In this document: one piece after another, positions 41,725-53,844 of the stretch | How the letters are laid out: each line of letters starts with the position of its first letter | How positions within the stretch are numbered: the stretch's first letter is position 1 | Source: Anaerolineales bacterium | GTDB taxonomy: Bacteria; Chloroflexota; Anaerolineae; Anaerolineales; Villigracilaceae | Direction of reading: 5' to 3' | DNA: 64,000 nt | Assembly: GCA_013360875.1 (NCBI GenBank) | Contig: JABWAU010000002.1 | Span: forward strand, 1 to 64,000 | Translations under genes and position numbers: made by a program | The notes under the pieces: generated by a model | What the model saw: only the letters and a program-made list of their open reading frames with translations | Database searches by the model: none | Told to the model about the DNA's origin: nothing

Positions 41725-41904
41725 CACGGCTCCTGTATCCTCGTAGAACGAGATTTATCTCGTCCAATAACGGACAAAATAAATTTTGTCCTACAACGCG
41801 GAAGACAATGGTCAATGCTTTTTTCATCACGGCTCGTGTATCCTCGTAGGACGAGATTTATCTCGTCCAATAGCGGACAAAATAAATTTTGTCCTACAAC
41901 GCGG
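41699..41904. repeat. Tandem duplication, two 103-bp units
   Basis: Units 41699-41801 and 41802-41904 differ at only a few bases. Each holds the start of the 48-residue ORF and two palindromes: a GTAG(A/G)ACGAGAT-type hairpin (41743-41765; 41846-41868) and a GGACAAAAT-type hairpin (41772-41794; 41875-41897). Confidence 0.9.
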
Positions 41905-44039: not shown

Positions 44040-45460
44040 TATTCTTCCTCATCTGGAATCGCAAACTGAAGAACGGCGGGCGGTGTGCCAAGCATAAGCA
44101 AGAGGGTTACGATGACCGCCGAAGTGAGACACCAGATACAAACGGCTCGAATGACGAATGGTTCAAGATAGGTGAGATAAAGCGAAAAGATTACGGCGAA
44201 GAATGCCATGCCAAAGAATCCGATGGCAGCAGGCTTTTCAAGTTTAGGAACGAATCTCCGCGCAATCCAAGAAGCAAGTAAAGCAACATAACCCAACAAG
44301 CCAAGAACACCAATTGGTAGAATGTCAAATAATTTGGCATAGCGGCTTTGCTGAACGGTATTGCAATCGCCGACGGGTCCGCAGATGGCTTCAACGGATT
44401 GGGTCTCTACGTATGAGAGGTAGGCAGCAACCCCAATGCCAATCACGATCAGGGCCGGGATGAGCCAATCCGTCCAGGCTGGCAGGGAAAAGGTCTTTCC
44501 CAGGGTAAAGGCAAGCAGGCTGTAAACAAGCGCAATGACCATAAGAGCTATGACAACGATGGCCAGGATAAAGCCATTGGATTGCGTATGTGCGGGGGCA
44601 GCCTCAGCGGGGAGGGGAGCCTCGGTAGCGGCAGGCAGGTCGAGGGTCGGGGAAGAGGCGGCTGCGTCGCTGCGCGGGGGGTGGGATGGGAAGTCCACGC
44701 CGCCCCGGGCGAGGTAAAACTTGATCAGCGCGGGCAGTTGGGCGGGAATTTCCTCGACCATCAGCACATGTTCGCCGATGATCAGCAGCGGCAGGTCCAC
44801 CTGGTCGCTGGACAAACCGTAGCCGGCCGCCACCTGGTAGAGATACGCCACATCTGCTGAGGTGACCACGTCAATGGTCTGGACTTGCAACTGCTCACCG
44901 TATTGTTGATAGAGTGGGCCTAGCGCCTGGGCAGTAATCAACTGACAATCCTGACAATCAAGGGTGGTGAACAGGCTGACGCGCACAACCGCGCCGCCAG
45001 GTATGGAGGCGACCTGCGGCACAGGGGTCGGTTGTAGGAGAAACTCATCCAGGCGGGGGATGGCCGGCCAGTCCACGCCACTCTTTGCCAAGTGAGACTC
45101 GATCAGGCCGGGCAATTCGTCGGGAATCTGACGCGCACCAATCAGGACGCGGTCGCCGATGACCAGGAACGGCACACCGACTTGTTCGCGCGGGATACCG
45201 TAGGAGGCGGCAACTTCATAGAGACGATTGACATCCTCCACGTCAACCACTTCGACCAGCAGGATTTCCAGTTGCGCTCCATATTTTCCCTGCAATGGCG
45301 GCAGGACATTCTCCAGCACTTCGTGGCAGTGTGGGCAACCGTTCATCCAGAACATCACAGCGTGAACGACGGGCGGGGCTTCTGCCTGAGCTGAAGCGGA
45401 GGAAAAAGTCAGGGCGATGGCGATCAGGATGATGGTCAGAAAAGAGGCGAGACGTCTCAA
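44039..45460 (-). CDS. VKOR-type disulfide catalyst with two N-terminal thioredoxin-like domains
   Basis: A 473-residue exported or membrane protein. A signal peptide (residues 1-26) is followed by two thioredoxin-like domains with CPHC (NGCPHCHEV) and CQDC (TLDCQDCQL). A Pro/Ala-rich linker follows, then a vitamin-K-epoxide-reductase domain of about five helices. The VKOR cysteines are in AICGPVGDCNTVQQS and RAVCIWCLTSAV. VKOR oxidises quinone-linked to make disulfides in DsbA-like partners. The start is TTG at 45460, overlapping the NifX-like stop, with GGAG upstream. Two thioredoxin domains placed before the VKOR are unusual. Confidence 0.88.
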   Translation of the reverse strand: MRRLASFLTIILIAIALTFSSASAQAEAPPVVHAVMFWMNGCPHCHEVLENVLPPLQGKYGAQLEILLVEVVDVEDVNRLYEVAASYGIPREQVGVPFLVIGDRVLIGARQIPDELPGLIESHLAKSGVDWPAIPRLDEFLLQPTPVPQVASIPGGAVVRVSLFTTLDCQDCQLITAQALGPLYQQYGEQLQVQTIDVVTSADVAYLYQVAAGYGLSSDQVDLPLLIIGEHVLMVEEIPAQLPALIKFYLARGGVDFPSHPPRSDAAASSPTLDLPAATEAPLPAEAAPAHTQSNGFILAIVVIALMVIALVYSLLAFTLGKTFSLPAWTDWLIPALIVIGIGVAAYLSYVETQSVEAICGPVGDCNTVQQSRYAKLFDILPIGVLGLLGYVALLASWIARRFVPKLEKPAAIGFFGMAFFAVIFSLYLTYLEPFVIRAVCIWCLTSAVIVTLLLMLGTPPAVLQFAIPDEEE

Positions 45461-45867
45461 TGTAGTTTCTCCTTATGATCCACGATAACGCCCTGCGCGG
45501 CTTCGAGCGCGGCTTCATCAATATTGATGATGTCGGTGATGATGGGCTTGATGCCGACCTGTTCCATGCTGTAATACGCGCCCGCGCCCATGCCGCGAGC
45601 GAGCAGGAACTGGCAATCACGAATCGCCTCCGCCATACGGAAGTGGCGATCCTGTTCGGCGGGGGCAAAGCCGTGACCGCGCGGGTCTTGTTCTTCGCTG
45701 TGTTCCCCTTGTGGGCTCGCGAAATGGGTGTGTCCCAATTTTTCGCGCTGCTCGCGGGCGGCGATCTTGCCTTCCTCGATCGTCAGGACAGTGTAATATT
45801 TGGCGCGCCCGAAGTGCTGGCTGATGGTCTGACCGTCATCGGTGACGGCGGCAATTTTGATGGACAT
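45457..45867 (-). CDS. NifX/NifB-type (dinitrogenase iron-molybdenum cofactor-binding family) protein
   Basis: A 136-residue protein with the family N-terminus KIAAVTDDGQTISQHFGRAKYYTVL and C-terminal RDCQFLLARGMGAGAYYSME. Histidines and a GHTHF/HSEEQD-rich middle could bind metal. In nitrogen-fixing cells such proteins carry cofactor, but no nif genes are visible here; stand-alone copies often have unclear roles. It overlaps the VKOR start. Confidence 0.85.
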   Translation of the reverse strand: MSIKIAAVTDDGQTISQHFGRAKYYTVLTIEEGKIAAREQREKLGHTHFASPQGEHSEEQDPRGHGFAPAEQDRHFRMAEAIRDCQFLLARGMGAGAYYSMEQVGIKPIITDIINIDEAALEAAQGVIVDHKEKLH

Positions 45868-45890
45868 GGTTTTTCTCCTTTGGTTGGTGA

Positions 45891-46256
45891 TTATTCCAGC
45901 GCAGCAAGCGCCAGCGTGGGGAAGTCCACGCCAAGTTGATTGGTAATTTCCGTGCCCGCCTCGGCAAACAGGCTTTTGACCTGGGCAAGGGCATCCTCAC
46001 GCGCCTTGATGAGCGGGTGATACTGCACTTGATTGCGCAGGGCGTAAAAATCCTGCACTTCAGGCTGAGCCAGTTGTTCGCCACTTTGCTGGCGGACAAG
46101 GAGCGCCTGATAGACTTCCAGCATGTGCGCTTCCAGGGAGGCGGCTTCGGGATTTTTCTCCGCTTCGGCTTTGGCTTCCAGATACGATTGGACGGTTCGC
46201 GACTCGCTCAGAGCTGTTCCCAACAAACGGGCGGATTCTATTAGTTCGGGATTCAT
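45891..46256 (-). CDS. YlbF-family protein (copy 1)
   Basis: A 121-residue helical protein of the YlbF/YmcA family. It begins MNPELIESARLLGTALSESR and contains an amphipathic helix typical of the family (FYALRNQVQYHPLIKARED). B. subtilis YlbF and YmcA form an Fe-S-containing complex with YaaT that affects RNA processing. No cysteine is visible in this copy. It follows the next YlbF gene with a 15-base gap. Confidence 0.85.
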   Translation of the reverse strand: MNPELIESARLLGTALSESRTVQSYLEAKAEAEKNPEAASLEAHMLEVYQALLVRQQSGEQLAQPEVQDFYALRNQVQYHPLIKAREDALAQVKSLFAEAGTEITNQLGVDFPTLALAALE

Positions 46257-46271
46257 CTTTTCTCCTGTTCT

Positions 46272-46685
46272 TCATCCGCCGCAACCGCAACTGCTCTTGC
46301 GTGCGTTCGGGGCAAATTCGACTCCTGCGCTTTCGCTGATCGTCTGGTTGATCTCGCGACACAGATGTACGAAGACTCGCTCGGCATTGTGATAGGTTTG
46401 TATAAGCGGCAGAGACTCAAGCTGCACTTGCAAGGTCTCCATCTCGCCATGATGTTCAAGAACGTTCCCCTGTCCCCATTGGATGGCGCGATCATGTTCG
46501 CGAATTTTGGCTGAGAGTTTCTGCACTTCGAGATCGTGGTTGACATCTTTTAAGGCTTGCAGGAACGCCTGATATTCGGGCGTCTCTGCCAGCAGTTTGC
46601 CCAGCGCTTGAGCGGCTTGCGTAACTTTTGTGTCTCCCATCATGGACAGGATGGGCAGGTCTATTTTTGGGGATGGTGTGCTCAT
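46272..46685 (-). CDS. YlbF-family protein with C-terminal CGCGG (copy 2)
   Basis: A 137-residue YlbF-like helical protein (AAQALGKLLAETPEYQAF, later LPLIQTYHNAERVFVHLCRE). It ends in SSCGCGG, a likely metal or Fe-S site that copy 1 lacks. One Cys in HLCRE may complete the site. The pair resembles YlbF plus YmcA. The position beside a CoA-binding gene and a ferredoxin fusion suggests an Fe-S-linked function. Confidence 0.85.
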   Translation of the reverse strand: MSTPSPKIDLPILSMMGDTKVTQAAQALGKLLAETPEYQAFLQALKDVNHDLEVQKLSAKIREHDRAIQWGQGNVLEHHGEMETLQVQLESLPLIQTYHNAERVFVHLCREINQTISESAGVEFAPNARKSSCGCGG

Positions 46686-46718: not shown

Positions 46719-47132
46719 CTATGGAAGTTCGACCCAACGTTCGCGCGGCAACTTCAACACAAAAACGGGACAGAATCCTTGAATGGCGGTCACATTGTTT
46801 TCTTTGCAGATTTCAAGCGCCGCGTCGGTTTCGGTGCCAGGCGGCATCCAGAAAATCGGGATGCCCAGCGCAGCGCAGGTCTCGGCGATTTTTTCGCTGA
46901 CGGGCGCAGGCGCGGCGGTCAGGACGACGTCGGGCTTTTGGGGCAGGTCTGCCAACGATGGGTAGCAGGCTACGCCGTCAATCTGCGCGTATTTCGGGTT
47001 GATGGGCAGGACGGTGTGTCCGTGTCGCGTGAGCGTCTCAAAGACTTCGTAGCCGTATTTACTTTTGTCTTGCGACGCGCCGACGATGGCGAAAGTGTGC
47101 GGAGTTTGGAGCAGCGGGGCGATGAGGCTCAT
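46719..47132 (-). CDS. CoA-binding protein (YccU-like)
   Basis: A 137-residue Rossmann-fold protein with the family pattern TFAIVGASQDKSKYGYEVFE, then INPKYAQIDGVACYPSLADL and IFWMPPGTETDAALE. Such proteins bind CoA or related dinucleotides; the function is unclear. The ATG at 47132 lies 4 bases after the ferredoxin-fusion stop. Confidence 0.88.
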   Translation of the reverse strand: MSLIAPLLQTPHTFAIVGASQDKSKYGYEVFETLTRHGHTVLPINPKYAQIDGVACYPSLADLPQKPDVVLTAAPAPVSEKIAETCAALGIPIFWMPPGTETDAALEICKENNVTAIQGFCPVFVLKLPRERWVELP

Positions 47133-47135
47133 GGC

Positions 47136-47798
47136 TTATCCTGCCACAGGCGCGCGTTTCTTGATGTCGTATTTTTCGGGGTCGGCGCGCAGCATGTTTT
47201 TGGATTGAGTAACAACCTTGTTCTTCTTGATGACGTGGCGAATGTAGCCGGTGGAAGGGAACTCGATGGCATCCTGTGTGCAGATGGTGGCGCAGGTGGT
47301 ACAGCCAACCATACACATCTGTGGTGCGACCACAACGGGTTTGTTGGTCTCATAATCAAATGAGTACACATTCCGCCCGCAGGATGTGACGCACAAGCCA
47401 CAGCCGATACAGCGTTCGGCGACGACGGTGGGATGCCAGTTAATCTGTTCGCGCGGAATTCCGTGCCACATGTTGTTATTAGGCGTGTTTGACATTTTGA
47501 TTTCTCCTTCACTTGACCTTTTGCACTGTTTATCCTGTAAAAGACAATTCAGCATATTTTTGATGGTTTCGGGCTGGGTGAGTTCATATTGAATGTTGAT
47601 GCCCAGTCGAGTACTTCTGACCATGCCAGCCTGGCGGAGCAGCATAAGGTGTTGCGAGATGTATGCCTGCCGCTGACGGGTTTGGGCAACCAGATCGCAA
47701 ACGCACGTCGGTCTCTGTGCAAGAATGTCCAATATCTGCAAGCGCACAGGATGCGACATGGCGTGCAAGATCTTCGCCCGTTTGCGGTACTCTTTCAT
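47136..47798 (-). CDS. ArsR winged-helix domain fused to a ferredoxin
   Basis: A 220-residue fusion. The ArsR-type part spans residues 1-90 (MSHPVRLQILDILAQ, the CVCDLVAQ cysteine pair, QAYISQHLMLLRQAG). The second part starts near residue 102 and has two ferredoxin motifs, CIGCGLCVTSCG and a second set ending GCTTCATIC, followed by a basic tail. The start is ATG 47798 with AAGGAAAG upstream; 47816 is a weaker alternative. An internal ATG at 47495 has a strong GAAGGAG Shine-Dalgarno sequence, so a free ferredoxin may also be made. The promoter carries an ATTCA-N6-TGAAT operator, fitting autoregulation by redox or sulfur state. Confidence 0.85.
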   Translation of the reverse strand: MKEYRKRAKILHAMSHPVRLQILDILAQRPTCVCDLVAQTRQRQAYISQHLMLLRQAGMVRSTRLGINIQYELTQPETIKNMLNCLLQDKQCKRSSEGEIKMSNTPNNNMWHGIPREQINWHPTVVAERCIGCGLCVTSCGRNVYSFDYETNKPVVVAPQMCMVGCTTCATICTQDAIEFPSTGYIRHVIKKNKVVTQSKNMLRADPEKYDIKKRAPVAG

Positions 47799-47834
47799 CA
47801 GAAACTTTCCTTGCATTCCATAAACATCCGAGTC

Positions 47835-47876
47835 ATTCAGGAAAATGAATATATTTCGACGGCAAGGTTTTTACAA
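47835..47876 (-). promoter_or_regulatory. Promoter of the ArsR-ferredoxin gene with ATTCA-N6-TGAAT operator
   Basis: On the minus strand TTGTAA (47876-47871), a 17-bp spacer and TATATT (47853-47848) form a promoter. The palindrome ATTCA-N6-TGAAT (47835-47850) overlaps the end of the -10 box and covers the expected start. Confidence 0.75.
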
Positions 47877-47927
47877 ATTCATCTCGTCAGCTCTTCACAC
47901 GGTCAGTTATCGAGGGTGAGCACTACG

Positions 47928-48188
47928 CTAACCTGCGTTCTGAACGGAGACGCCAGAGAGCCACTCGACCAGTTTTTCGCGCGGCGGCAGTTCGCGCGTG
48001 CTCGCCAGCACACCGTCAATCACCAAGCCTGGGATTTCATCCAGCGATATGTGATGACGGATTTGCTTTTCATCGTCCACACGCACGACCTCGACATCGG
48101 ACTTGCCAAGTTCCTGAAGAACTTCGTCAATCAGCGATTCGAGTTTGACGCAGTTATAGCAGCCAGTTCCCAAAATCTCGATTTTCAT
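47928..48188 (-). CDS. Small thioredoxin-like protein (redox-active disulfide type)
   Basis: An 86-residue thioredoxin-fold protein with CxxC at LGTGCYNCVKLESL and cis-Pro in DEIPGLVIDG. The length fits the glutaredoxin-like redox-active disulfide family. A GGAGG sequence lies 5 bases before the ATG. It lies between the ArsR-ferredoxin promoter and the next thioredoxin gene. Probably a thiol or metal carrier. Confidence 0.88.
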   Translation of the reverse strand: MKIEILGTGCYNCVKLESLIDEVLQELGKSDVEVVRVDDEKQIRHHISLDEIPGLVIDGVLASTRELPPREKLVEWLSGVSVQNAG

Positions 48189-48217
48189 GGCGTCCTCCTT
48201 TCAGGACTTGTTTCAGT

Positions 48218-48243
48218 GTAGGACGAGATTAATCTCGTCCTAC
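48218..48243. repeat. 26-bp perfect palindrome, GTAGGACGAGATT family
   Basis: Thirteen-base arms GTAGGACGAGATT and AATCTCGTCCTAC meet without a loop. Close to the stop codon of the thioredoxin gene at 48247. A related copy is at 53329-53354. Confidence 0.85.
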
Positions 48244-48246
48244 GGC

Positions 48247-48501
48247 TTATGATTGTTGCATGGCGGCGTCCGCCAGCCAGGTGGTGACTTCGGCGGGGGT
48301 GGGGATGCGTCCCGCGCAGACCAGTTTTTCGTTGACGACCAACCCAGGCGTGGAGAGAATGTTGTACGCCATGATGTCCTTGTAGTCGGTCACTTTGACG
48401 ATTTCCGCCTGAAAGCCCATTTCGTCCACAACTTTGCGGGCAATCTGTTCGACGCGTTTGCAATTGGCGCAGCCAGAACCGAGGATTTTGATGGTAAGCA
48501 T
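48247..48501 (-). CDS. Small thioredoxin-like protein paired with permease (copy A)
   Basis: An 84-residue protein with CxxC at [14 protein letters not shown] and cis-Pro in [12 protein letters not shown]. It is closely similar to the one at 51909-52181. AAGGAG precedes the ATG. It follows the permease at 48554, and the same permease-thioredoxin order recurs at 52242/51909. It probably reduces or binds the substrate of the permease. Confidence 0.9.
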
Positions 48502-48553
48502 GAGAAACTCCTTGTGATGGGTAGGTTGGTGATTGGTGATTGGTAATTGGTGC

Positions 48554-50023
48554 TTAGTCGGCGGAGACGGGGACGGTTTTGCGTTCGTTGCGGCGGTTGA
48601 CCAGCCAAAGCGCCGCGCCGAGGGCGGCTATCATCGCGGCAAGATAGAGCGCCAGCAGACCGAGCGGCGTACCGTCCACCCACTCGCCGTAGATGAGTCC
48701 CGCCAGCGTGCTGAAGAGCGCGACCCAGAAGACGTAGGTCCAGGCTTTGAGCCGCCCGATGATGACCGAAATCATCAGGATGCTTTGCAGGCTGAGTTCG
48801 GGGTCTGCCATCAGGTACGCCAGCAGCGGACCGCGGTGCATCCCCAGGCTGAGGAACATGTTGGCAATCGGCACTTCCACCAGCGTCGGGAAGTACATGA
48901 ACACGCCGAAGACCACGCCCGCCAGGTTGCCGAGGATGGTGTTGCTCCCCGCGAGGGTCTCAATCCATTCGGGTTTAATCAATACGCGGATGACACCCAC
49001 CGCAAACACGCCGCCCACCAGCAGCGGGAATATCTGTTTGACGAAGCGCCACGATTCCCACAGCCAGTCGCGCAGTTCGTCTTCGCTCAGGCGTTTGAAC
49101 ATCAGCCAGACGAGCGCGGCGATGGCGATGATCACGCCGAAGAAGCGCCCCGTGAACTGGATGTCCAATCCGCCCGCGTGGGGGTTCATGCCGACAGCGG
49201 CGGTGAGCAAGGTCAAGGCGACCAAACTCATGGCAATCCACGTCCAGACGGTGAAGCCCTCGTGGATTTTGTCGAGTCCCTTCCACGAAGCCAGTCCGAT
49301 GAGGACAAGTAAGACGATGAGAATCGCGCCTTGCGCGGTGACTCCTTCCTGCCCCTTGCTGGCGTCGTAAGGAACGAGGCGGTAGAGGAAGTCCTGGAAT
49401 TTGTCCATGCCTGCGATGGGGAGCGTAACCTGCCCGTAGGAGTTTGTGAGCAAACCAACTTTGAACGTGCCAGCCAACAGCAGCGCGACCAAAATCAGCA
49501 GAAAGACCAGCGCGGCGCGGCGCATTTTTCCCTGACCCGCGAACATGGCGTCGGATTCTTTATCGTGAGCAAGGTCTTCGCGCGAGAAGATGAGCGCCAT
49601 AATCATGCCGATACCGACGCCAAAGGTCAGCGAGAGGAACAGGCGGGCAAACGCCAGGTCAACGCCGATGACGCCGCCCGTGTAAACCAGCGCCAGAATG
49701 TTGGCGGCGGGCGCGAAGAACAGGAAGGTGATGGCGGGACCAATCCCCGCGCCTTTTTTGTAAATCCCCGCGAAGAGCGGCACGATGGTACACGAGCAGA
49801 CCGCCAGCACCGAGCCAGCCAGCGCCGCAGCAGGATAAGCGATCCATTTGGGAGCGTTGCGCCCCAAAAAGCGAGTGACCGATTCCTTCGGGATGAGGGC
49901 TGTCATCGCGCCCGCAATGTAGAAGGCAGGGACGAGGCAAAGCAGCACGTGCGCGGCGAGATAGGCAGCCAGGTTGCCCAGTCCGCCGTTGAGCATTTGA
50001 AGAAGGAAGTCACCGATTTGCAT
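48554..50023 (-). CDS. Predicted permease (YraQ/ArsP-like, UPF0718), long form (copy A)
   Basis: A 489-residue membrane protein with about ten helices. The family motif [20 protein letters not shown] is present in the second transmembrane region; the two cysteines may be a substrate site. A second, C-terminal half repeats the pattern ([20 protein letters not shown]). The frame is open to 50170; GGAG lies 6 bases before the ATG at 50023, which is preferred over 50029. The relatives include ArsP, an organoarsenical exporter. Substrate unknown. It is followed by a thioredoxin gene. Confidence 0.85.
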
Positions 50024-50050
50024 TTTCATCTCCGATGTTTGAAGTACCGA

Positions 50051-50083
50051 GACACATCGTCCCAGAAAGGGATTTATGTCGCA
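50051..50083. repeat. Palindromic repeat, GACACATCGTCCC family
   Basis: GACACATCGTCCC and AGGGATTTATGTC form an imperfect hairpin. The sister copy is at 31897-31931. Confidence 0.65.
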
Positions 50084-50105
50084 CTTTTGCGAAATGAATT
50101 TCACA

Positions 50106-51347
50106 TTACGGACATTGAATGACTCCCCACGCCCACAGGCATCCGCCGCAGGTGGGGAAGGTATTGCCAAAACAATCTTCCAGGTTGGCTTCCGCCATGT
50201 CGCAACCGCCGCTCAACGTACACGGCGAAAAGTCAAACTCATGCACTCGCTGGCGGAAGGCGAGATGATTCGCGTCGTTCCAGATTTCGGTCAGTGGCGC
50301 GTCGTTGACATTGCCGATGACATACCGACTGACCTGACGCGGCTTGTCGTAGAGATAACTGACGTGACTGTGCATCAGCCCCAGGCAGGGACTCACGCTT
50401 CCATCCCAGGACACCGCGACGGCTCCCGTTTCGATGAACGGACACCTGCCCTCGGCGGGATTCAGCCGCGCCCCGTTGATCTGCACGTTATGGCGGGCGC
50501 GCAGAGTCTGGTAAAGCGGCGTGAACGTGACTTCGTTCCAGTCCATGCGCGGCAGTTGCAGGGACGGCGACCACATCGAGGGCTGGCTTTCCAGCGTATC
50601 CAGCGTGCGCGAGTACAGCATCTCTTCGCACATCTCCGCCGTGTACGGCAGAATGTTGGTCACCATGTAGTGTGAAATCCCATAGCGGCTGGCGACATGC
50701 AGGAGATTAGGCAGTTCGCTCAGGTTGGAACGCGCCGCCACGAAGACGATTCCCGTCTCGGGCAGGTGGGCGTTATGCACGTAGCGCAGGTAATTCAGTT
50801 TTTCGATGTTCTGTGTGGGGTTCGCTCCATTGGCATACGCATCGGCGTGGAGTCGGTCGAGCGAGAACCAGACCAGGTTCACCCCGAGGCGGATGAATTC
50901 CAGCGCGAGGTCTTCGGTGAACAAAATCCCATTGGTGATCAACTCGACGCGCGCGGCAACCGACTTCGCCCGCTTCACCATCTCGCGGATTTTCGGATGA
51001 AATAATGGCTCGCCAAACCCGCCAAAGACGATGATGGGCTTTTCGGGCAGGGCTTCGAGGCTGTCCATCAGCCGCTCAAAGGTCGCCTCGCTCATCGTCC
51101 CCTGTTGCTCCTGCCACGAATAGCGGATACACATGCGGCACGACAGGTTACAGCGGCTGGTCGGCTCAAGGTAGATTTTGGCTGGATGGGTGGGGGCACG
51201 GCGCAAGGTCAGGGCTTGAGGCGTCTCTTCGAGCAGGACTTCCGCTCCCTCGGTCAAGCCAAGACGCGTCGCAACTTCGGGCGGAAGGGTGATTCTGCCC
51301 TCGTCATTCACTTGCACGCGCAACCCATTGGAAAGTACCACAGGCAC
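50106..51347 (-). CDS. AbrB-type domain fused to radical SAM/SPASM protein
   Basis: A 413-residue fusion. Residues 4-45 look like an AbrB/SpoVT swapped-hairpin (GRITLPPEVATRLGLTEGAE). The radical SAM cluster is CNLSCRMC (C66, C70, C73). The C-terminal region is cysteine-rich (SVSPCLGLMHS, ENDING in CGGCLWAWGVIQCP), like SPASM auxiliary clusters. The start is GTG at 51347, with GTG 51341 as alternative. The promoter carries both a CRP/FNR-like site and an ATTCA-N6-TGAAT operator. SPASM enzymes often modify peptides, but no precursor peptide is obvious. The AbrB domain may bind DNA or only mediate dimerisation. Confidence 0.88.
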   Translation of the reverse strand: MPVVLSNGLRVQVNDEGRITLPPEVATRLGLTEGAEVLLEETPQALTLRRAPTHPAKIYLEPTSRCNLSCRMCIRYSWQEQQGTMSEATFERLMDSLEALPEKPIIVFGGFGEPLFHPKIREMVKRAKSVAARVELITNGILFTEDLALEFIRLGVNLVWFSLDRLHADAYANGANPTQNIEKLNYLRYVHNAHLPETGIVFVAARSNLSELPNLLHVASRYGISHYMVTNILPYTAEMCEEMLYSRTLDTLESQPSMWSPSLQLPRMDWNEVTFTPLYQTLRARHNVQINGARLNPAEGRCPFIETGAVAVSWDGSVSPCLGLMHSHVSYLYDKPRQVSRYVIGNVNDAPLTEIWNDANHLAFRQRVHEFDFSPCTLSGGCDMAEANLEDCFGNTFPTCGGCLWAWGVIQCP

Positions 51348-51360
51348 CTCGCTAAAATAT

Positions 51361-51423
51361 ATTCATTCTTTTGAATATAGTATACGACTTTCAACGAGCA
51401 GGGTCAATGTGACATATATCACA
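51361..51423 (-). promoter_or_regulatory. Dual-controlled promoter of the radical SAM gene
   Basis: On the minus strand TTGACC (51407-51402), a 17-bp spacer and TATACT (51384-51379) form the promoter. TGTGA-CATATA-TCACA (51408-51423) abuts the -35 box. ATTCA-N6-TGAAT (51361-51376) covers the expected start. Confidence 0.82.
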
Positions 51424-51443
51424 AACAGATAGTGATACCTGTA

Positions 51444-51464
51444 GCGCAAGTCTCAGACTTGCGC
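51444..51464. repeat. Palindrome, GCGCAAGTC family
   Basis: GCGCAAGTC and GACTTGCGC surround TCA. A sister copy is at 43546-43567. It overlaps the 3' end of the cation-efflux relic. Confidence 0.75.
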
Positions 51465-51835
51465 CGCCTGCGCCACAGATCTCCCCTGCCCGCACGCCTC
51501 ACATTCAAACTGGATGGTGGTGTGTTCGATGCCGAATTTCTTCAGCCGCTTCTTGATTTCCGCCATCACGCCGCCGTTGGCGGTGATGGTCTGGTCGGCG
51601 GTGATGACATGCGCGCTGAGGGCAACGTGACCCGAGCAAATGCTCCAGACGTGCAGGTCATGGACATCCAGCACACCTTCCACTCCCGCCATGCTTTGTC
51701 CGATTTTTTCGATGGAGAGATGTTCGGGGACGCCTTCCACCAGGAGACGACTTCGGCAACGAGAATCGCGGCGGTGAAAATCATCGAGAGGACGAATTTG
51801 TTTTCGAGGGTTTTGTTGGGACGGGGGGTAATCAA
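51453..51835 (-). pseudogene. Cation diffusion facilitator relic (CzcD-like), internal deletion
   Basis: The part at 51740-51835 encodes a first transmembrane helix (NKFVLSMIFTAAILVAEVV). The part at 51453-51740 encodes a CDF C-terminal dimerisation domain (DVHDLHVWSICSGHVALS, and ending CEACGQG) in another frame. The middle, with all other helices and metal sites, is missing. A full CDF transporter is about 300 residues. It is therefore a disabled gene, lying between the radical SAM and thioredoxin genes. Confidence 0.8.
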
Positions 51836-51854
51836 AGTTCCTTTTGGGTTATGT

Positions 51855-51890
51855 GAGATTTATCTCGCCGATGTGCGACATTAATGTCGC
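51855..51890. repeat. Short palindromes (GAGATTTATCTC; GCGACATTAATGTCGC)
   Basis: GAGATT/TATCTC (51855-51866) and the perfect GCGACATTAATGTCGC (51875-51890) lie side by side upstream of the thioredoxin stop at 51909. Confidence 0.7.
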
Positions 51891-51908
51891 GCTACATTGT
51901 CGCGCTCG

Positions 51909-52181
51909 TTAATTCAGCGGAATCATGCCGCTGGGTTTGCCCTGCGCTTCGTTCAGCCATTGGATGATTTGCACAGGAGCGGGAATCCGCCCGACTGCGA
52001 GCAGCTTTTCATTGACGACCAGCCCCGGCGTGGACATCACGTTGTACGCCATGATGTCGGCGTAGTCGGTCACTTTGACGATTTCGGCAGGGATGTTCTC
52101 TTTGGCGAGAATGTCGCGCACGATGGCTTCCAGTTTTTTGCAGTTGGCGCAGCCAGAGCCGAGGATTTTGATGGTAAGCAT
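51909..52181 (-). CDS. Small thioredoxin-like protein paired with permease (copy B)
   Basis: A 90-residue redox-active-disulfide protein with CxxC at [14 protein letters not shown] and cis-Pro in [12 protein letters not shown]. It is nearly a duplicate of the protein at 48247-48501, with a longer tail. AAGGAG lies upstream. It sits after the permease at 52242, as copy A sits after its permease. Confidence 0.9.
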   Translation of the reverse strand: MLTIKILGSGCANCKKLEAIVRDILAKENIPAEIVKVTDYADIMAYNVMSTPGLVVNEKLLAVGRIPAPVQIIQWLNEAQGKPSGMIPLN

Positions 52182-52241
52182 GGGGGGGCTCCTTGTAGTT
52201 GGTAAATTGGTGAGTGGTAAATTGGTAATTGGTGAATGAGG

Positions 52242-53306
52242 TTACATGACCAGATTGAACAAATAGCCCGTGAGGATGATGGCAACGCCAATGACGCCGA
52301 TGAAGACGGCAATCAATTGCGGTTTGAACACGCGGCGCAGGATGATGGCTTCGGGCAGGCTCAAGCCGACCACCGACATCATGAACGCGAGAACCGTGCC
52401 GAGTGACGCGCCCTTATCCAACAGCGCGCTGACGATGGGGATGACGCCCGCGGCGTTGGAGTAAAGCGGGATGCCGACCAGCACCGAAGCGGGGACGCTC
52501 CACCACGCGCTTTTGCCCATGATGCCTGTCAGCGCGTCTTGTGGGACGTAGCCGTGAATGAATGCCCCAATGCCAATGCCGATGATGACGAACCAAAACA
52601 CCTTGCCGACAATTTCCTTTGTGCTGTCCCAGGCGCGGCTGATGCGTTCTGTCCAGGTCAGTTTTTCTTCCACAACTTCCACATTGGCGCGCGGCTTCAT
52701 GTCATAAACGAAGCCTTCCACGTAGCGTTCCAGTTTCATGCGTCCCAAAATCAGTCCGCTGACGACGCCGATGGTCACGCCCGAAAGCAGGTACAAGCCC
52801 GCAACTTTCCAGCCGAACAAGCCAATCAGCAGGACAAAGGCAACTTCGTTCATCAGCGGGGAAGTGATGAGGAACGAGAAGGTGATTCCCAGCGGAATGC
52901 CCGCCTGCACAAAACCAATAAAGAGCGGCACGGACGAGCAGGAGCAGAAAGGCGTGATTGCGCCGAATACCGCCGCCATCAGGTTGCCAATCCCTTCGCC
53001 GCGCTTCTCGACCATGACGCGCACTTTCTGCGTGTCAATGAAGGTTTGGAAGAGCGTGATGACGAAAATCATGCCGCCCAAGAGCAGGAACAATTTCGGC
53101 ACGTCGTAGAAGAAGAACGCCAGCGATTCGCCCAAATGCGAGCCTTGCGGCAGGGCGAGCAAGCCGTAAGCCAGCCAATCCGCGAAGGGTTGAATGACGT
53201 TGTACAGCGCGAACCAAAGAATGGCGGCAAACGCCACAATTCCCCAGGAACGCGCATCGGTTTGGCTAAAAGGTGTTTTTTCCTGCTTGGTGAGTTCTGT
53301 TTGCAT
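52242..53306 (-). CDS. Predicted permease (YraQ/ArsP-like, UPF0718), short form (copy B)
   Basis: A 354-residue membrane protein with about eight to ten helices. The family motif TPFCSCSSVPLFIGF is present, and SPLMNEVAF and VGIPLYSNAAGVIP are typical. AAGGAG lies upstream of the ATG. The promoter (53353-53397) carries an ATTCA-N6-TGAAT operator, within the 3' end of the arsR-type gene. It belongs with the thioredoxin gene downstream. Metalloid or sulfur-compound export is a guess. Confidence 0.87.
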   Translation of the reverse strand: MQTELTKQEKTPFSQTDARSWGIVAFAAILWFALYNVIQPFADWLAYGLLALPQGSHLGESLAFFFYDVPKLFLLLGGMIFVITLFQTFIDTQKVRVMVEKRGEGIGNLMAAVFGAITPFCSCSSVPLFIGFVQAGIPLGITFSFLITSPLMNEVAFVLLIGLFGWKVAGLYLLSGVTIGVVSGLILGRMKLERYVEGFVYDMKPRANVEVVEEKLTWTERISRAWDSTKEIVGKVFWFVIIGIGIGAFIHGYVPQDALTGIMGKSAWWSVPASVLVGIPLYSNAAGVIPIVSALLDKGASLGTVLAFMMSVVGLSLPEAIILRRVFKPQLIAVFIGVIGVAIILTGYLFNLVM

Positions 53307-53328
53307 TGGTAAAGTCTCCTTCGTTTGC

Positions 53329-53354
53329 GTAGGGCGAGATTAATCCCGCCCTAC
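53329..53354. repeat. 26-bp palindrome, GTAGGGCGAGATT family
   Basis: Thirteen-base arms with one mismatch, a relative of the palindrome at 48218-48243. It directly abuts the operator beginning at 53353 and lies in the permease leader. Confidence 0.8.
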
Positions 53355-53397
53355 ATTCATAAATTTGAATGTAATTTCCTAAAAAAATTCCCTACAA
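53353..53397 (-). promoter_or_regulatory. Permease promoter with ATTCA-N6-TGAAT operator
   Basis: TTGTAG (53397-53392), an 18-bp spacer and TACATT (53373-53368) form the minus-strand promoter. The 20-bp palindrome ACATTCATAAATTTGAATGT (53353-53372) overlaps the -10 box and covers the start. Confidence 0.75.
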
Positions 53398-53736
53398 TTG
53401 AATCAACTCATCCGCGCAGTTGGGGCAGGTGCAGACGTTGGTTTTGGCGGGCAAGGCAGGCTGAGTTCCCGTCAGCGCGCGCATGGCGTCCATCACGCCG
53501 AAGATTTCGGGGCGGATGACGCGGTAGTAGATGTTCAACCCGTCGCGGCGGACTTCCACCAGACCCGCTTCCTTTAAGACCATCAACTGCTGCGAGATGT
53601 ATGCCTGTCGGTAGCCGAAAACCGCTTCCATGTGACAGACGCATTGCTCGCCGCCCCGCAACAGGTCCAGGATGGCGAGGCGGACGGGGTGCATGAGGGC
53701 TTTGTAGAGTTTGGTTTCTTTTTCGTAGGTTTCCAT
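53392..53736 (-). CDS. ArsR-family repressor, candidate regulator of the thiol-redox island
   Basis: A 114-residue winged-helix repressor. It has MHPVRLAILDLLRGGEQCVC, the recognition region GYRQAYISQQLMVLKEAG, and a C-terminal four-Cys tail with NVCTCPNC. The CVCH pair and the extra cysteines could bind metal or react with thiols or persulfides. The ATG at 53736 is preferred; the frame is open to 53844. Its promoter has an ATTCA-N6-TGAAT operator over the start (53800-53815), so it is probably autoregulated and may also repress the permease and radical SAM genes. Confidence 0.88.
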   Translation of the reverse strand: METYEKETKLYKALMHPVRLAILDLLRGGEQCVCHMEAVFGYRQAYISQQLMVLKEAGLVEVRRDGLNIYYRVIRPEIFGVMDAMRALTGTQPALPAKTNVCTCPNCADELIQL

Positions 53737-53799
53737 TGGTTTGCCTGTATCACCGTGCGCGCTCGACGCGAGAGAGCGTCTCTTACGCTGCACTGTTAT

Positions 53800-53844
53800 A
53801 TTCAAAATCTTGAATGAGTATACACCTGTAAACAGATGTGTCAA
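53800..53844 (-). promoter_or_regulatory. Promoter of the ArsR gene with ATTCA-N6-TGAAT operator
   Basis: TTGACA (53844-53839), a 16-bp spacer and TATACT (53822-53817) form a near-consensus minus-strand promoter. ATTCA-AAATCT-TGAAT (53800-53815) begins just after the -10 box and covers the start. Confidence 0.85.

Follow-up and report, generated by a model that had tools for sequence, protein, structure and literature searches.

The window analysed here, a 64,000-nucleotide stretch of an Anaerolineales genome, holds a gene (arsR-fd) in which an ArsR repressor is tethered to a ferredoxin and an internal start signal is retained between the two; no described ArsR repressor with a whole ferredoxin was found in the open-access literature searched. 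The gene captures a coupled gene pair becoming a fusion, with the old start codon kept.

The fused gene and its internal start signal

The arsR-fd gene is encoded on the minus strand and runs in one unbroken frame of 220 aa from the ATG at 47798 to the stop at 47136 (Table 1); a second candidate start, the in-frame ATG at 47816, would add six residues and give 226 aa. The initial annotation had described a CVC-type winged-helix repressor continuing into a two-motif ferredoxin, and this is what the window contains, with no stop codon between the two domains. Residues about 14-83 were assigned to ArsR/SmtB by hmmscan, and the domain scored 51.3 bits against PF01022 (cutoff 22) and 71.1 bits against NF033788 (cutoff 55). 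Residues 130-173, with matches to Fer4_7 and Fer4, contain CxxCxxCxxxC and CxxxCxxCxxxC; the eight invariant cysteines (130, 133, 136, 140, 162, 166, 169 and 173) in two motifs, the second of the CxxxCxxCxxxC form, indicate a putative 2[4Fe-4S] ferredoxin. The AlphaFold model of the whole chain, computed from a 20-row alignment, had a mean pLDDT of 81 and a pTM of 0.45. It consisted of two folded domains joined by a disordered stretch (residues 92-107), in which the internal ATG (codon 102) is located. Residues 1-90 (block-mean pLDDT 82-96) formed a complete winged helix with α5 ending at residue 92, and the ferredoxin domain had a pLDDT of about 80. The predicted ArsR part comprises α1-α5 and a β wing, with ArsR/SmtB proteins as its nearest folds; in fold and profile searches it grouped with SmtB, SqrR, HlyU and BigR, and the ferredoxin part grouped with dicluster ferredoxin subunits.

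Table 1. Features of arsR-fd and of the surrounding island, in window positions
Feature	Position	Strand	Remark
arsR-fd fusion gene, 220 aa	47136..47798	-	stop 47138-47136; L065/G121 and L064/G106 built alike
ArsR/SmtB winged-helix domain, residues 1-91	47526..47798	-	α1-α5 and wing all predicted
C32-V-C34, candidate soft-metal/thiol sensing site	47697..47705	-	start of α3
Disordered linker, residues 92-107	47478..47525	-	holds internal start signal; pLDDT below 50
Internal Shine-Dalgarno AAGGAG	47504..47509	-	8 nt before ATG; kept in window, L065, L064, L115
Internal ATG, predicted free-ferredoxin start	47493..47495	-	aligns with relatives' free-ferredoxin start codons
2[4Fe-4S]-type ferredoxin domain, residues 102-220, 119 aa	47139..47495	-	8 invariant Cys
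Operator ATTCA-N6-TGAAT upstream of arsR-fd, ATTCAGGAAAATGAAT	47835..47850	.	1 of 4 exact genome copies
Promoter-like TTGTAA-17-TATATT	47848..47876	-	-10 overlaps operator; consensus scan only
Operator upstream of radical-SAM gene 50106-51347	51361..51376	.	promoter-like 51407-51379 abuts
Operator upstream of ArsP-type permease 52242-53306	53355..53370	.	
Operator upstream of second ArsR	53800..53815	.	promoter-like 53844-53817 abuts
Second ArsR: CVC, extra CTCPNC tail, no ferredoxin	53392..53736	-	recognition helix nearly identical (RQAYISQ)
ArsP_1-type permease, upstream in same gene row	48554..50170	-	
MTH895/ArsE-family small thioredoxin	48247..48501	-	
Second small thioredoxin, just upstream of arsR-fd	47928..48188	-	
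CoA-binding protein, immediately downstream of arsR-fd	46719..47132	-	
Two YlbF-type proteins (first with CGCGG tail) and NifX-like protein	45457..46685	-	conserved operon neighbours

The GAAGGAG and ATG noted in the initial annotation are both present, and AAGGAG-N7/8-ATG is kept at the domain boundary of all three fusions found, GTGAAGGAGAAATCAAAATG in the window, GACCAAGGAGCAACCAAAATG in L065 and CATCAAGGAGCAAAGCTAATG in L064, as well as in the unfused relative L115 (AATCAAGGAGGAACAAAATG). The residues encoded over AAGGAG vary between the fusions (SEGE, DQGA and HQGA) and in L115 the hexamer falls in another frame; since AAGGAG stays identical while the encoded residues change, it is the DNA, not the protein, that is kept at the junction. 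In L115 it must start the ferredoxin, which is there a separate gene. For each fusion (n=3), the ferredoxin ATG is the sole in-frame ATG, GTG or TTG with a six-nucleotide Shine-Dalgarno sequence at 5-10 nt. Shuffling of codon order placed such a sequence at this ATG in 6, 11 and 9 of 5000 trials for the three genes, and by this measure the signal exceeds chance; with synonymous shuffles it came back more frequently, in 21%, 13% and 9% of cases, and the joint rate is about 0.25% provided that the three are independent. An internal start, predicted from a Shine-Dalgarno sequence and an ATG that are both conserved where the two domains meet, is well supported at the sequence level and should yield free ferredoxin, in line with the double output that had been suggested for the gene.

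Operator, neighbours and the candidate sensing site

An island operator had been claimed for the arsR-fd promoter, and it is found there. The 3,987,936-base genome has exactly four copies of its motif, ATTCA-N6-TGAAT, all at 47835-53815 within 6 kb, so that it is unique to the island; the backwards control of the motif gave zero copies in the same genome. Three of the four operators, including that of arsR-fd, overlap or abut a predicted -10 box (47835, 51361 and 53800). The promoter scan as a whole was not above shuffles (7 in total vs 4.5 ± 2.5), and what is suggestive in it is the coincidence of promoter-like -10 boxes with operators, nothing else. A palindrome in the putative promoter of its own gene, at or next to the predicted -10 box, has the geometry of a repressor site. 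The same motif is located shortly upstream of ArsR genes, fused and unfused, in dozens of Chloroflexota loci, and its restriction to the island in this genome gives a ready-made candidate regulon. The recognition helix of the second ArsR is nearly the same as that of arsR-fd, and for this reason the two repressors are likely to cross-regulate.

Several observations concern the neighbourhood (Table 1). The YlbF-type protein at 46272-46685, with the CGCGG end, is related to the halo-CC-star family; the conserved Anaerolineae row comprises YlbF with CGCGG, a second YlbF, NifX-like, VKOR-thioredoxin and Fe-S proteins. The radical SAM/SPASM protein (50106-51347), under an island operator, has an N-terminal MazE/AbrB-like domain. 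A 26-bp palindrome (GTAGGRCGAGATTAATCYCGYCCTAC), possibly a REP/MITE-like element, is present at 48218-48243, where it separates the operon's two thioredoxin genes, and at 53329-53354 and 41846-41871; it is dispersed in the genome (seven places at ≤3 mismatches, four on this contig). In three loci of Chloroflexota (L064 3575-6666, where an ABC ATPase is beside it; L146 1-1866; and L162) a SufBD-type gene directly precedes the ArsR and ferredoxin genes, which suggests that ArsR/ferredoxin islands are linked to Fe-S assembly.

Among 24 ArsR relatives C34 was invariant and C32 was present in 90% or more, and the α5 cysteines of arsR-fd (C85 and C92) were not conserved; this makes the CVC pair the best candidate sensor, and sensing most likely proceeds via its thiols. 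The CVCDL motif and the ArsP/ArsE-type neighbours suggest a soft metalloid such as As(III) as the ligand. Alternatively, the SqrR-like relatives suggest that the pair senses a sulfur or redox signal. None of arsB, acr3, arsC and arsM was found among the genes examined.

Distribution and origin of the fusion

We looked for the fusion among relatives of the window and through its order, family, class and phylum, in 1,757 partly overlapping searches of genomes, and in a scan of 84,980 GTDB species genomes; beyond the window, the architecture was seen only in L065 (G121, uncultured Anaerolineales; 71% identity) and L064 (G106, Nak19; about 53-55%), which belong to the same order and another family. 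Both also have the internal start signal, as had been proposed for checking. No relative was found in viral contigs, and the plasmid search yielded no ArsR-ferredoxin fusion but did yield a Sulfuricella ferredoxin-reductase (Fd-FNR) fusion. Separate ArsR and ferredoxin genes, the second check proposed, do occur in relatives. L115 (S25.Bin185), from the window's own family, has the same neighbours as the window, a TAG in the ArsR frame between the domains, and the ferredoxin in another frame, with a separate 1-nt change in the spacer. We rejected a mere frameshift error as the origin of this split, since the TAG interrupts the ArsR frame before the spacer change is reached. In L070 (G016, the window's genus) the operon is the same, ArsR has 103 aa, and the CoA-binding gene follows it with no ferredoxin in between. 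The ferredoxin is a free gene in many further genomes of Anaerolineae and their relatives, frequently close to a separate ArsR or ArsP, and the free ferredoxins of Anaerolineae ArsP/ArsR islands are 58-79% identical to that of arsR-fd. Judged from these genomes, the fusion is genuine, rare and evolutionarily labile, the last because L115 carries a TAG before the ferredoxin.

The longer ferredoxin frames of L036-L058 and L152-L158 (200-245 aa) were considered as fusions and rejected, as those whose translations were examined had no ArsR; we take the extra length to be a NIL-like domain at the C-terminus or a TusE/DsrC-like region at the N-terminus. In L034 (G151), around 1501-1761, an in-frame TGA interrupts the ferredoxin immediately ahead of its first cluster motif; this would be either a decayed gene or an assembly error.

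The ArsR tree joined the window with L065 as sisters (100/90), followed by L070 and then L115, and placed L064 outside at lower certainty; in the ferredoxin tree L115 and L065 were nearest to the window. A single origin of all fusions was not retained: L070, without ferredoxin, and L115, unfused, fall between window/L065 and L064, which would mean either two gains, or one gain and losses, L064 being a long branch. Between the window and L065 synonymous sites were near saturation in both domains (pS 0.73-0.78). In the ArsR domain pN was 0.14 against a pS of 0.78, and purifying selection thus acts on this domain, though it is translatable only in the fused form.

It is unlikely, in our estimation, that adjacent coupled genes were joined by a mere tolerated accident (neutral stop loss), in which case the fusion would have no function of its own and only free ferredoxin and repressor activity would matter. 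The lability of the fused state, as seen in the split of L115, the loosely conserved linker (pN 0.31 between the window and L065), and neutral simulations, in which the 16-codon linker stayed stop-free in 20-35% of runs at relevant distances, are all consistent with such an accident. With these frequencies the open linker is no proof of selection for the fusion, and selection on it is not claimed. However, two sister lineages of different families have kept the fusion, without a net indel, while their synonymous sites diverged nearly to saturation, and it is found again in L064.

Proposed function and comparison with known systems

We think it probable that arsR-fd is a dual-output gene of a thiol/metalloid-type operon, providing a ferredoxin-tethered autorepressor and a free ferredoxin, and that the fusion arose by stop loss. 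An ArsR dimer on ATTCA-N6-TGAAT beside the -10 box would repress the promoter. Starts at the ATG at 47798 would give the ArsR-linker-ferredoxin chain, and the dimer would bear two ferredoxins; as ribosomes from this ATG cannot stop before the ferredoxin, the repressor would exist only as the fused chain. Starts at the internal AAGGAG/ATG would give free ferredoxin, a presumed redox partner of the thioredoxin and Fe-S proteins of the operon. A thiophilic ligand, or a sulfur or redox change, at the CVC pair would lead to derepression, as in ordinary ArsR proteins. With loss of the arsR stop codon the ferredoxin, chiefly an electron carrier, would have become attached, and since the internal start kept free ferredoxin, the tethering may have been tolerated or mildly useful.

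Most likely the ferredoxin is an electron carrier: elsewhere its family consists of free proteins or is joined to an FNR-like reductase, an indication of electron transfer and not of sensing, and the role fits a thioredoxin- and Fe-S-rich operon. Fusions of this type of ferredoxin to an FNR-like FAD/NAD reductase were seen at L163 1453-2562, L165 676-1785 and L171 6034-7122; they occur in Chloroflexota and also on a plasmid of Sulfuricella, whose annotation names the protein only as an FAD-binding oxidoreductase.

These features bear on the suggestion of the initial annotation that the protein would be a direct redox or Fe-S sensor, in which DNA binding by ArsR would change when the ferredoxin clusters are oxidised, reduced or lost, and the operon would read redox or Fe-S status. 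Such sensing is possible, since every repressor from arsR-fd carries the ferredoxin, and the eight intact cluster cysteines, the existence of the Fe-S winged-helix regulators SufR and ArnR (PMC12343034) and the SufBD-type Fe-S assembly genes next to the cluster in L064, L146 and L162 are in its favor. Nothing in the sequence demands it, and the evidence makes it quite unlikely: relatives without the ferredoxin keep the operator type and CVC, the linker is flexible, non-conserved and predicted with low confidence as disordered, the same gene should also make free ferredoxin, and the ferredoxin has the standard form of an electron carrier and is joined to reductases in other loci. A two-input reading appears more doubtful still; in it the chain would integrate the CVC ligand with the electron load or integrity of the tethered [4Fe-4S] clusters, free ferredoxin would compete for electrons or partners, and one gene would encode a sensor and its own redox buffer. 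A sequencing, assembly or annotation artefact is extremely improbable: all sequences are metagenome assemblies and the stop in a close relative, named in the initial annotation as the sign of an error, does exist in L115, but the TAG of L115 is a true in-frame stop and distinct from the spacer change, and the frame is present in three separate assemblies, two of them independent of the window, so that an assembly error was ruled out.

Returning to the dual-output gene, a regulatory role of the fused protein would mean that a thiol-type repressor is coupled in a new way to the electron pool of the cell. Should the fusion be a passenger, it still ties ferredoxin physically to Anaerolineae ArsP/thioredoxin operons, in which the two are elsewhere separate neighbours.

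Canonical As(III)-sensing ArsR of the E. coli type, with the motif CVCDLC (PMC7876115), shares CVCDL with arsR-fd, and the ArsP-type permeases and the MTH895/ArsE-family thioredoxin are a further likeness; in arsR-fd the motif is CVCDLV, with C32 and C34 present and the third cysteine absent. The nearest solved relatives of its ArsR profile are of the persulfide-sensing SqrR/BigR/YgaV type (6o8k/6o8l and 3pqj), which also share the operator, as ATTCA-N6-TGAAT contains the published RcSqrR site ATTC-N8-GAAT (PMC9774250). The SqrR/BigR dithiol pair (α2 and α5) is absent from arsR-fd, in which the α2 cysteine position aligns with Asp24, the α5 cysteines are unconserved and CVC is found at α3 instead; the BigR equivalog score was 39.9 against a cutoff of 155 bits. 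The fused ferredoxin sets arsR-fd apart from both groups. The free 2[4Fe-4S] ferredoxins of Anaerolineae islands and the Fd-FNR fusions have the ferredoxin domain in common with arsR-fd, but no DNA-binding domain is attached to them. In Cas8b/Cas11b, too, one gene gives two proteins via an internal in-frame start, the C-terminal part of the larger being also produced on its own, starting at an internal Met (PMC11899642); the proteins are unrelated, and that case was shown experimentally whereas arsR-fd is read from sequence. SufR and ArnR likewise combine a wHTH domain and Fe-S ligands within a single chain. ArnR has a single cluster in a dedicated sensory domain (PMC12343034); arsR-fd, in contrast, carries a complete eight-cysteine ferredoxin on a disordered linker, which should also be made free.
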